A stretch of DNA of 20,067 nt from a virus: the IMG/VR virus record IMGVR_UViG_3300037882_001392, positions 1-20,067 of that record, one strand, 5' to 3'. Of this stretch, positions 11,835 through 16,525 are shown in pieces. A program made the position numbers and the translations under genes. The stretch's first letter is position 1. Each line of letters begins with the position of its first letter. The notes below the pieces were generated by a model. That model was not told the origin of the DNA. It saw nothing but the letters and a program-made list of their open reading frames with translations, and did no database searches.

Positions 11835-12066
11835 GATGTAGATGCGCTTTTGCAGGAGAAGATCAGAGTATATTGAGGGAAGTTGCAGAAGGGAAGCGGG
11901 GATCGGAAGCAGGGTATAAAATAGGGAAAATTTTTAGTAATATTGGGAGATGTCAATAGGATGAAGCCACGCCCAGGACCAAAAAAGGCTTCGTGGGGGG
12001 TGGCATTTGTGAATGAGATGCATTTGCATTTGTGTTTCGGCGGGACTGGCAGGGCAGACTGGCAAG

Positions 12067-12085
12067 TGTAACAGTTTGTAACAGT
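12067..12085. repeat. Two 9-bp direct repeats, one helical turn apart
   Basis: TGTAACAGT occurs at 12067-12075 and again at 12077-12085, period 10 bp, so both copies face the same side of the helix. They end 6 bp before the -35 box of the rightward promoter. This is the usual place for a tandem activator site. Confidence 0.55.
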
Positions 12086-12474: not shown

Positions 12475-13197
12475 ATGTCTGTTATCTCAAATCGTCACAA
12501 CGTGTTTACTTTCGTCGCGGGTAAATCCGATGCACTCACGGGTCAGCGAGTTTGCAAAGCTGGATTCAAGCAAACTGACAAGATGACCAAGGCAGGAGTG
12601 AAAGCACTCACGCCAATCTATGCCAGCATCCCGGAGCTGGATATTTTGTCGGCGGAAGTGCTGGCCGAATTTGAACCCCATGTTCGTGGTTTGATCGCGG
12701 ATACTCAGGACAAAATCCTTTCCAGTATGTATGTCGCGGGGAAGATCAAGGTTGGCGATAGCATCAGTGACGAAGATATCGGCATTGATTCAGTTCTGGA
12801 ATTCCTGAATGCCACGGGTGAGAAGATTACGGAAGAACGGATCGCCGCATGGTATGCAGCCGATGGCATGGCCGAGATTGTGCAGGTGTACACAATGGAA
12901 CGATTGGCGACAGTTGGGAAGATCAACGCGGATCAGGAGTTCACTGACCTTGAAGTGAAAATGCAAAACATCATCACTGCCACCGTGGGCAAATACAGTC
13001 AGGTGTTTGCATCACTGGCAGGGAAGTTCACCAAGCTGTCTGAAGTAGAGGGGAAGCTGGTTCTCGAATTGCTTGGACTGCTGGAACCTGTGGATACCAT
13101 CGGAAAGCGCCTGACTACGAAAGTCACCAAGATGATGCAGCCGAAGGTAGTTATTGCGGATGCCGATGCACTGGATCTGACCACGATGGCGGAATGA
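12475..13197 (+). CDS. Hypothetical 240-aa early protein
   Basis: 240 aa, unrecognised. It is largely helical and acidic. Segments include LDILSAEVLAEFEPHVRGLI, ISDEDIGIDSVLEFLNATGE, ITEERIAAWYAADGMAEIV and LEVKMQNIITATVGKYSQ. No catalytic motif or membrane segment. Codon use differs from neighbours: many CTG, GCG, CGG and GTG codons, against the CTT/CTC/TCT style of genes to the right. This could mean high expression or a separate origin. The leader GGAGAATATAGAATG is identical to that of the 78-aa gene. A stem-loop terminator lies about 90 nt after the stop. Its helix pattern loosely resembles the 223-aa protein at 18465, which may be a distant relative. Confidence 0.82.
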   Translation: MSVISNRHNVFTFVAGKSDALTGQRVCKAGFKQTDKMTKAGVKALTPIYASIPELDILSAEVLAEFEPHVRGLIADTQDKILSSMYVAGKIKVGDSISDEDIGIDSVLEFLNATGEKITEERIAAWYAADGMAEIVQVYTMERLATVGKINADQEFTDLEVKMQNIITATVGKYSQVFASLAGKFTKLSEVEGKLVLELLGLLEPVDTIGKRLTTKVTKMMQPKVVIADADALDLTTMAE

Positions 13198-13237
13198 AGA
13201 CAGTTCAGTAGTGTAGGCTAGACTGGCAATATGGGGA

Positions 13238-13277
13238 TTAGGCTGACTGCCTACTAGCCTAACTGCCTGCTAGCCCG
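13238..13277. repeat. Inverted repeat and tandem 16-bp repeat
   Basis: TTAGGCT (13238-13244) and AGCCTAA (13256-13262) form a 7-bp perfect dyad with an 11-nt spacer. ACTGCCTACTAGCCTA (13246-13261) is followed directly by ACTGCCTGCTAGCCCG (13262-13277), 13 of 16 bases identical. Further TAGGCT/AGCCTA copies lie at 13214, 13598 and 13631. Confidence 0.65.
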
Positions 13278-13284
13278 TAAGTGG

Positions 13285-13320
13285 GGGGTGCCTGTGTCGT
13301 GCAGGTGCCCCTCTTGCGTT
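13285..13320 (+). terminator. Stem-loop terminator after the 240-aa gene
   Basis: GGGGTGCCTG (13285-13294), a 7-nt loop, and CAGGTGCCCC (13302-13311) pair over 10 bp with two G-U pairs. The tail CTCTTGCGTT has only a few T residues, so release may be partial or bidirectional. Position 88 nt after the 240-aa stop fits the end of the two-gene unit. Confidence 0.55.
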
Positions 13321-13324
13321 ACAG

Positions 13325-13419
13325 ATACCCATACATTACAGTATATCCATGTATTCTCTACTGCTAGAGTGTATAGGAATATATAGCTGTATTGTAATGT
13401 ATGTATATCTATGGGGTAT
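13325..13419. repeat. Large nested inverted repeat (cruciform-type)
   Basis: Successive arms pair as follows. ATACCC (13325-13330) pairs with GGGTAT (13414-13419). ATACATTACA (13331-13340) pairs with TGTAATGTAT (13393-13402). TATATCC (13342-13348) pairs with GGAATATA (13376-13383, one bulge). CTCTA (13356-13360) pairs with TAGAG (13365-13369) around a 4-nt loop. The left arm is almost uninterrupted; the right arm carries short insertions. No coding frame explains the symmetry. Confidence 0.65.
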
Positions 13420-13605
13420 AGTTCTTTTCTTTCAAATTTTTATAGGGGGTACAACATAAGTAGAATAGACACTTATACAGATACATCTCTACCAGTCTTA
13501 ACTTTCCCATCATCTCTACTCTACAGAGAATAGGTAATATCTCTATATCTCTATTCGGGATAGGGGGTGCCCTTGACAGGGGCAGGGGGGGGTAGCGTAG
13601 GCTGG

Positions 13606-13629
13606 CGGGTAGTCGGGTTGACGGGTAGA
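13606..13629. repeat. Three tandem CGGGTWGW octamers
   Basis: CGGGTAGT, CGGGTTGA and CGGGTAGA follow each other without spacing. They are flanked by TAGGCT at 13598 and AGCCTA at 13631. A short iteron-like array; a protein-binding role is inferred. Confidence 0.6.
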
Positions 13630-13668
13630 TAGCCTATTCACCTGATTATTAACTAATTCATTGTTTGA

Positions 13669-13816
13669 AACACTGAAGGCGAGAATCTCATGTGCATCAC
13701 AAACACTAGACATTTTACTTCATCCAATTGTTTTCTTCTAGAATGCCAGCTCCAAGCTCTTGTGGCATTCATTGAGTGTAGAAAAGAGCACAGAAAGTAC
13801 AGTGTTCTCAAGAGCT
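13669..13816 (+). ncRNA. Candidate pseudoknotted leader RNA
   Basis: There are three perfect pairings. AACACTG (13669-13675) pairs with CAGTGTT (13800-13806). GAATGCCA (13741-13748) pairs with TGGCATTC (13763-13770). AGCTCTTG (13755-13762), which lies in the loop of the second stem, pairs with CAAGAGCT (13809-13816). The last pairing makes an H-type pseudoknot. It ends some 15 nt before the SD of the 86-aa gene, where a translation-control element would sit. The same stretch can encode a 44-aa peptide, so the two readings compete. Structure is inferred by eye only. Confidence 0.35.
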
Positions 13817-15463: not shown

Positions 15464-16525
15464 ATGCGTGTCCTATGCGGTATATCTGGCATAGATTTTG
15501 AATGTGATCATTTTCCCGGATTCTTAGCAAGTCGTGAAACTTGTCATCCAATCTTCTATATGCCACAAAAGAAACTTCTCGGCTATACCGGGAAATTCTT
15601 CACTTCTGAACTTACATCCACCGACAAGTATCTTCTCTTTCTAGCAGTTCTCCACTCTTCTGAACTAGTAGATTTTCGTCTTCCGGCAATTCAAACTCCA
15701 TTCACTCAATCAATCATTGCTAGAAACTTCGAATCTCTTGTCCACATTGTCTGCAAAATCAATGCAGTCGATGCGCCTTCAGTTGTCTTTCCTCACATTG
15801 TAGTTGGACCAGAAACTCGCAATCTCTCCAACGTGCACTTCTGGATTGATCGCTGGAAAGAGTCTTACAAAGAATTCCAATCAGGAACTGCAAAAGCATA
15901 TGAAGGTCGAAAGCTAATCCAGCGAGAAACGGCTCTTGCCCGGCTTATCAAGAATCCATACAAGCCATCTGCCGAATATGCAAGTCAAATTGCAGACTGG
16001 GCAATATCCGCAGGGAATATAGACTCCTACAAACAACTCACAAACAATCCACTTACAAATACTCAAACATCTCTGTCTTCCTACTGGCGCACTGCAATTA
16101 TTCGATGCGCCAAGTTAGATCGTCTCTATCAAATCCCTGAATCCGATATGAGGGAAATCTTAGAGCATTTTGAAACTGAACTAGATGCAATAGGATCAAT
16201 CTATTCCCATGAACTTCTCCAGATTCTTAGAACTGCTCTCAAGAAGCGTTCCGATTATCTCGGTCTTGAACTAGGATCAAATACAGCCAACATGAAAACA
16301 TACGAAGAAATCAGTTCTGCTACTCCAGATGATATTCAATCATCAAACATGAAACTCATGATTGATTTGGCTCCTACAATCGAACCGCTGAAGAAAGATT
16401 TTCCAGATACAGTATCTTATCTTCGTGCAAAGATGCGTTGGAATATGGCAAAAGCATCAGGTAAATTCGGTCCTCCACCTGCACCACCTACACCTATTTC
16501 ACAACTTCCTCCAGGACTCTTCTAA
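15464..16525 (+). CDS. Unknown 353-aa protein beside the helicase
   Basis: 353 aa, with strong SD AAGGAG 5 nt before the ATG. The N-terminal 30 residues contain C5, C14 and C27 with H16 and H28 (MRVLCGISGIDFECDHFPGF). This might hold a metal but has no standard zinc-finger spacing. The body is helical (STDKYLLFLAVLHSSELVDF, SDMREILEHFETELDAIG). The last 20 residues are Pro-rich (GPPPAPPTPISQLPP), as in flexible interaction tails. The gene ends 14 nt before the SF1 helicase gene and is probably co-expressed, which makes a helicase loader, accessory or single-strand-binding factor conceivable. The sequence alone does not establish this. Confidence 0.82.
   Translation: MRVLCGISGIDFECDHFPGFLASRETCHPIFYMPQKKLLGYTGKFFTSELTSTDKYLLFLAVLHSSELVDFRLPAIQTPFTQSIIARNFESLVHIVCKINAVDAPSVVFPHIVVGPETRNLSNVHFWIDRWKESYKEFQSGTAKAYEGRKLIQRETALARLIKNPYKPSAEYASQIADWAISAGNIDSYKQLTNNPLTNTQTSLSSYWRTAIIRCAKLDRLYQIPESDMREILEHFETELDAIGSIYSHELLQILRTALKKRSDYLGLELGSNTANMKTYEEISSATPDDIQSSNMKLMIDLAPTIEPLKKDFPDTVSYLRAKMRWNMAKASGKFGPPPAPPTPISQLPPGLF

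Follow-up and report, generated by a model that had tools for sequence, protein, structure and literature searches.

Mirrored repeat arrays mark a candidate replication origin joined to an early promoter in PaP2-related podoviruses

A gene-free element of about 400 bp (about 13239-13636) in the virus record IMGVR_UViG_3300037882_001392 probably combines an iteron-type replication origin with an early promoter, judging from its sequence and that of its relatives. The record was analysed from position 1 to 20,067, and this whole stretch of 20,067 bases is referred to here as the window. It comes from a podovirus-type phage with terminase, portal and capsid genes on the minus strand and early genes, including that of a Dda-like helicase, on the plus strand. 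The origin reading follows from the conserved layout of the element, the repeat arrays at its two ends, the unstable core between them and a switch in strand composition. Since these phages carry their own replication genes (polymerase A, found in 8 of 8 relatives, a primase and the Dda-like helicase), an origin of their own is to be expected; the episomal persistence reported for Shea, a phage close to PaP2 (PMC13348215), also speaks for one. What is new is the arrangement of contiguous 8-bp units in mirrored arrays and the concerted change of unit sequence among members of the family.

Results

Layout and distribution of the element

Sixty-one loci were collected through portal and terminase searches, the relatives being mostly metagenome contigs, and the gene of p240, which precedes the element in the window, was present in 29 of the 61 (tblastn). 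Most p240-carrying loci of sufficient length have a gene-free stretch of several hundred nucleotides just 3' of p240 with the same layout, and the element is present in about 25 related podovirus contigs, 3' of the same orphan gene. The family that carries it consists of phages of about 44 kb (PaP2 and PaMx41 relatives), a group for which we found no origin annotation; no relative of the window at the DNA level was found in the phage collection. In the cultured phage PaP2 and in 20Aug470 the element was matched by its layout, which also recurs in more distant members (L039, L053, L056, L061, L062 and L094-L097). Among bacterial genomes, a search for the host gave only five metagenome bins with conflicting labels (Thermoprotei, Coxiella, Anaerolineae, Ponticaulis), which contain the L093-L097 contigs; the labels most likely reflect mis-binning and say little about the host.

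Between the arrays, the order is a G+C-rich hairpin, an inverted repeat, an A+T-rich core with AAATTTTTATAGGGGG, ATCTCTA boxes and TTGACA. The features of the window are as follows.

12475-13197, plus strand: p240, a 240-aa protein with no assigned function; in relatives the element lies directly 3' of it
13239-13278, plus strand: left array, five contiguous 8-bp units TAGGCTGA CTGCCTAC TAGCCTAA CTGCCTGC TAGCCCGT, seen in the sequence and as direct repeat D2
13283-13313, plus strand: short hairpin, rich in G+C, that separates the left array from the inverted repeat, seen by folding
13323-13356 and 13377-13410, no strand: arms of the inverted repeat, 34 nt each, 79% complementary, with a 20-nt loop
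13325-13330 and 13414-13419, no strand: outer 6-bp arms ATACCC/GGGTAT, seen in sequence and fold
13377-13476, no strand: candidate DNA unwinding region, the least stable 100 bp of the window by nearest-neighbour stability
13434-13449, no strand: core motif AAATTTTTATAGGGGG; in relatives AATTTTT, then a run of C or G
13484-13556, no strand: repeated ATCTCTA boxes from core to promoter (repeat families D9 and D12; tandem repeat ATATCTCT)
13573-13578, plus strand: TTGACA, a -35-like hexamer kept here in nearly all relatives
13598-13603, plus strand: TAGGCT, a -10-like hexamer; spacing 19 in the window, 17 or 18 in relatives
13597-13636, minus strand: right array, five 8-bp units in mirror orientation, reading TAGGCTAT CTACCCGT CAACCCGA CTACCCGC CAGCCTAC on the minus strand; seen in the sequence and as a period-8 tandem repeat

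Mirrored arrays across relatives

The left and right arrays of the window match as mirror images with a score of 22.5, against 10.6 for shuffled sequence (z 8.3). Across 26 loci mirror similarity had a mean z of 6.2; at 22 of them none of 100 shuffles equalled it, and at two others a single shuffle did (24 of 26 above shuffles). Mirror similarity exceeded direct similarity in 20 of the 26. The score of L004 is uninformative, its arrays lying outside the scored stretch, and that of L063 is weak. The units differ wholly among relatives, and within each phage the left and right units match in mirror orientation. They include AGACCGCT-like and AATGCCAG-like types, TATGACAG (L056), TTTTCTG/GAAAACA (L096) and CCAAGGTT (PaP2). 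The layout is thus constant in the family, but the unit sequence changes, in both arrays at once. At the sequence level, two arrays of five 8-bp units would supply the multiple repeated sites for one protein that are expected of an origin, and they fit putative protein-binding sites in DNA. A first-pass annotation of this DNA had noted two clusters of short repeated boxes; these are the mirrored arrays at the two ends of the element.

Melting core, strand composition and promoter

By nearest-neighbour stability, the genome-wide minimum over 50 bp falls inside the element in 6 of 6 full-length relatives, and in each of the 20 loci some stretch of the element ranks among the lowest 0.6% of windows. 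In the window itself the element ranks first for instability over 100 bp and second over 50 bp; its own least stable 50 bp are 13395-13444.

GC skew is positive to the left of the element in 21 of 21 loci and negative to its right in 17 of 21 (near) and 19 of 19 (farther). Change points fall between -300 and +460 of TTGACA in 14 of the 21, and whole-genome skew profiles agree with a switch at the element. The gene of p240 lies on the plus strand like the right-hand genes, yet has the skew sign of the left-hand side; the switch therefore follows the element and not the strand of the genes.

TTGACA followed by nAnnnT occurs in 18 of 18 non-redundant elements, although TTGACA served as the anchor for most of them and the informative part is the spacing and the -10 sequence. 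The spacer is 17 nt in 14 elements, 18 nt in three and 19 nt in one, the window. Apart from the window's own spacing of 19, this agrees with a sigma70 promoter (TTGACA, about 17 nt, TAnnnT). The promoter sits at the right edge of the element, pointing outward from the core, and the right array overlaps its -10 hexamer and predicted transcription start.

The inverted repeat

The inverted repeat at 13323-13410 had drawn the attention of the first-pass annotation, which described 95 nt (13325-13419) with four arm pairs about one shared centre and proposed an extruded or folded origin element or a long RNA hairpin. That such a repeat exists and is unlikely by chance was confirmed: it is the top-scoring inverted repeat of the 20-kb window, and an equally good one arose in 1 of 1000 local dinucleotide shuffles and in 3 of 100 window-wide shuffles. 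Its geometry is different, since the main helix is centred on 13366.5 and the outer 6-bp pair on 13372, a displacement of 5.5 bp, with an 11-nt bulge on the right side separating the two. For the 95 nt as RNA the fold energy is -32.4 kcal/mol (z -3.2; equalled by 1 of 200 shuffles); as DNA their fold is unexceptional (z -1.3; 24 of 200 shuffles equal). Given this DNA fold, the imperfect arms and the 20-nt loop, we rejected a cruciform. Relatives retain some hairpin near the core, but neither the sequence nor the register of the inverted repeat. It belongs to a set of variable repeats next to the core that can form hairpins; a separate function for it cannot be demonstrated, and its hairpin is a small, ordinary, variable part of the larger element. 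The proposal of an origin survives for that larger element, with its mirrored arrays, stability minimum, skew switch and conserved layout; the extruded or folded form proposed for the inverted repeat is not supported.

Discussion

Alternative explanations

The stretch 13198-13690 folded better than its shuffled controls as plus-strand RNA (z -4.5) and, less markedly, as minus-strand RNA (z -2.9). The plus-strand result led us at first to read the element as a large structured non-coding RNA, some 430 nt long, in which pairing between the arrays would form the closing helix and the hairpin of the inverted repeat an inner domain. The strong fold arises because the mirrored arrays make the two ends of this stretch complementary. 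In a plus-strand RNA, transitions that leave G.U pairs would be tolerated and those that leave A.C would not, and the alignment treated both alike: over the relatives the array arms hold 650 Watson-Crick pairs, 75 G.T and 87 A.C (p 0.39), and the inner inverted repeats 461, 32 and 34. An excess of G.U was accordingly not seen, nor is the long RNA hairpin of the first-pass annotation upheld, although in the window alone the mismatches do lean to G.U (9 versus 3). Over 20 loci the two strands also fold equally well, with z -4.67 on the plus strand versus -4.57 on the minus strand for the full element (p 0.84) and -1.58 versus -1.85 for the inner part (p 0.35). Several relatives have terminator-like hairpins 5' of the left array, and transcription from the promoter, which is 3' of the core, would begin after the left arm, which counts against an RNA that spans both arms. 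No Rfam match to the element rose above threshold, and a sub-threshold microRNA match was put down to chance. Strand-specific conservation of pairs, excess stability of the transcribed strand and a match to a known family were thus all lacking. We dropped the RNA on the wobble counts and the equality of the strands; these, with the placement of terminator and promoter, speak against a conserved RNA, to which we leave only the slightest chance.

Three other explanations keep the element as DNA. It might be a promoter-operator only: a phage repressor would occupy the two arrays, looping the intervening DNA, and so silence the early promoter; the A+T-rich core would be incidental. This would be in keeping with the conserved TTGACA-17-nAnnnT, with the position of the right array across the -10 and start site, and with the contiguous 8-bp units, because tandem sites of ribbon-helix-helix repressors, such as met boxes, have 8-bp spacing. 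However, a genome-wide stability minimum about 130-180 bp upstream and a skew switch independent of gene strand are not predicted by an operator, and we regard it as unlikely. A partition site (centromere) of an episomal pseudolysogen, where repeats flanking a promoter bind an adaptor, would have a model in plasmid R1 parC, with two repeat blocks around a promoter that is looped and repressed (PMC5016525), and would suit the recent report that Shea, a phage close to PaP2, is unintegrated and persists as an episome (PMC13348215). Yet a ParA-type ATPase (PF13614) was not found in 8 of 8 relatives by a search whose control was positive (ParM and TubZ were not searched), the R1 repeats are direct where those of the element are mirrored, and a centromere needs no melting core; this explanation is very unlikely. 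Slightly less likely still is a replication terminus or fork trap, with mirrored polar barriers holding forks that meet at the element. The skew sign would fit converging forks and the arrays resemble opposed fork-barrier sites in outline, but neither an unstable core nor an outward promoter is needed for a terminus, and most of the skew change falls within a few kb of the element.

An iteron-type origin has its own difficulties, and several observations weigh against it. None of the proteins scanned is a known initiator. The skew does switch at the element, but its sign, with a C-rich plus strand to the right, is the reverse of that at bacterial origins such as oriC, and under the usual deamination model it would fit converging forks. 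PaP2 shares the layout, yet the stability minimum of its genome lies outside the core. The 8-bp units are out of phase with the DNA helix, unlike plasmid iterons, and the 19-nt spacer of the window's own promoter is poor. Finally, the window has no excess of DnaA boxes: an exact TTATNCACA is absent, and sites with one mismatch, such as that at 13473, are fewer than expected by chance. This removed a DnaA-box origin from consideration; lambda relies on phage initiators in place of DnaA (PMC5043065).

Comparison with known systems

Iteron plasmid origins (P1, RK2, R6K) likewise combine repeat arrays with an A+T-rich opening region, and autoregulation is common among them; the element differs in its mirrored arrays, 8-bp spacing and lack of a DnaA box excess. 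In phage lambda the iterons lie to one side of an A+T-rich region, inside gene O. The lambda origin resembles the element in having repeated initiator sites, 19-bp iterons, beside an A+T-rich region of about 40 bp, and in that initiation requires a phage promoter to drive transcription within or close to the origin (PMC5043065). The element, unlike it, is gene-free and has two mirrored arrays of 8-bp units, one on each side of its core; a homologue of O was not found. Herpes simplex oriS also has inverted boxes for one origin-binding protein with an A+T-rich spacer between them (PMC12543377), but these are single boxes, not arrays, and the spacer is much shorter; the likeness is one of layout, not of kinship. 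Plasmid R1 parC and pSM19035 parS likewise place tandem repeats, the binding sites of small adaptor proteins, over or beside a promoter (PMC5016525), but theirs are direct repeats with a partner ATPase and no melting core, whereas the element has mirrored arrays and no ParA was found.

A further likeness is to the corresponding region of the Pseudomonas phages PaP2 and 20Aug470 (Jamesmcgillvirus), where a terminator after a 241-aa gene is followed by a left (CCAAGGTT)n, a core AATTTTTTAACCCCCTA and a right, mirrored (ACCTTGR)n, with a mirror match of z 3.6. They differ in unit sequence and in a spacing of roughly 10 bp, and no homology of the 241-aa protein to p240 was detectable. The deposited PaP2 genome (L086, NC_005884.1) also contains a 547-bp tandem duplication of 99.5% identity at 30208-31301. 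PaP2 and its relatives were deposited with their first base inside the element, but 20Aug470 crosses the junction without a gap; genome ends at this place were therefore rejected, and the deposition start looks like a choice of record start.

Proposed mechanism and candidate initiators

At published origins an initiator binds multiple sites and opens an adjacent A+T-rich region, helped by a well-placed promoter (PMC5043065). By analogy, a phage-encoded candidate protein might bind both arrays as an oligomer and draw them together, and the resulting strain would open the intervening A+T-rich core, whose flanks are prone to form hairpins. The right-edge promoter would contribute as well, since transcription running rightward from it would leave negative supercoils in its wake and so favour opening; the phage's own primase/helicase and family A polymerase could then load. 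The array-binding protein, lying over the -10 and start site, would also repress the early promoter, so that transcription and replication would be coupled.

Two proteins were considered for the part of initiator. The AlphaFold model of p240 is fairly confident (mean pLDDT 84, pTM 0.51), but p240 has no match in PHROG or Pfam and its model no structural relative; without a family or fold match it was set aside as a known initiator. Its identity is 23% between array types versus 51-52% within them, a sharper contrast than for terminase or helicase. Array type tracks phage phylogeny, and naming the binding protein by trees was judged not decisive. The second protein, p353 (15464-16525), is an initiator candidate. 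Its gene adjoins that of the Dda-like helicase and is conserved in nearly all relatives at 23-49% identity, and p353 is the most widely conserved early protein without an assigned function; it has no match to a family or a solved structure.

Other features

The core motif was tried as a wider marker and discarded, since a scan with AATTTTnGATACCCCYTAA gave three unrelated contigs, the number expected by chance. In these three (L090-L092), which are unrelated phages, GGGGGGTAC...AAATTTTTGATACCCCCTAAA lies just 5' of a large-terminase-like gene, placed alike in each. Elsewhere in the window, a non-coding block at 11925-12003 is conserved at about 75% identity in some ten relatives, with AAAAnTTTAGnAAnATT...ATAGG and then a hairpin with CCAAAAAAGG. 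It lies just upstream of p201, likely the small terminase gene, and is perhaps a leftward promoter or a packaging site. A tandem TGTAACAGTT (1.9 copies, 100%) at 12067-12085 overlaps a stretch that is identical in L019 and L020 and near-identical in L023.

Implications

A mirrored-repeat DNA element can mimic a large structured RNA when a folding test is run on one strand, and two simple controls, wobble direction and strand symmetry, separate the two. For the phages themselves, the concerted turnover of the units raises the idea that arrays act as specificity codes, each type answering only to its own binding protein. Co-infecting or resident phages would then form incompatibility (superinfection-immunity) groups controlled at the origin and not by a lambda-type repressor; we put this forward as a speculation that is rather unlikely to hold. 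A precise candidate origin would allow direct tests of where replication starts, which protein binds the arrays and how the carrier state is controlled in this family.
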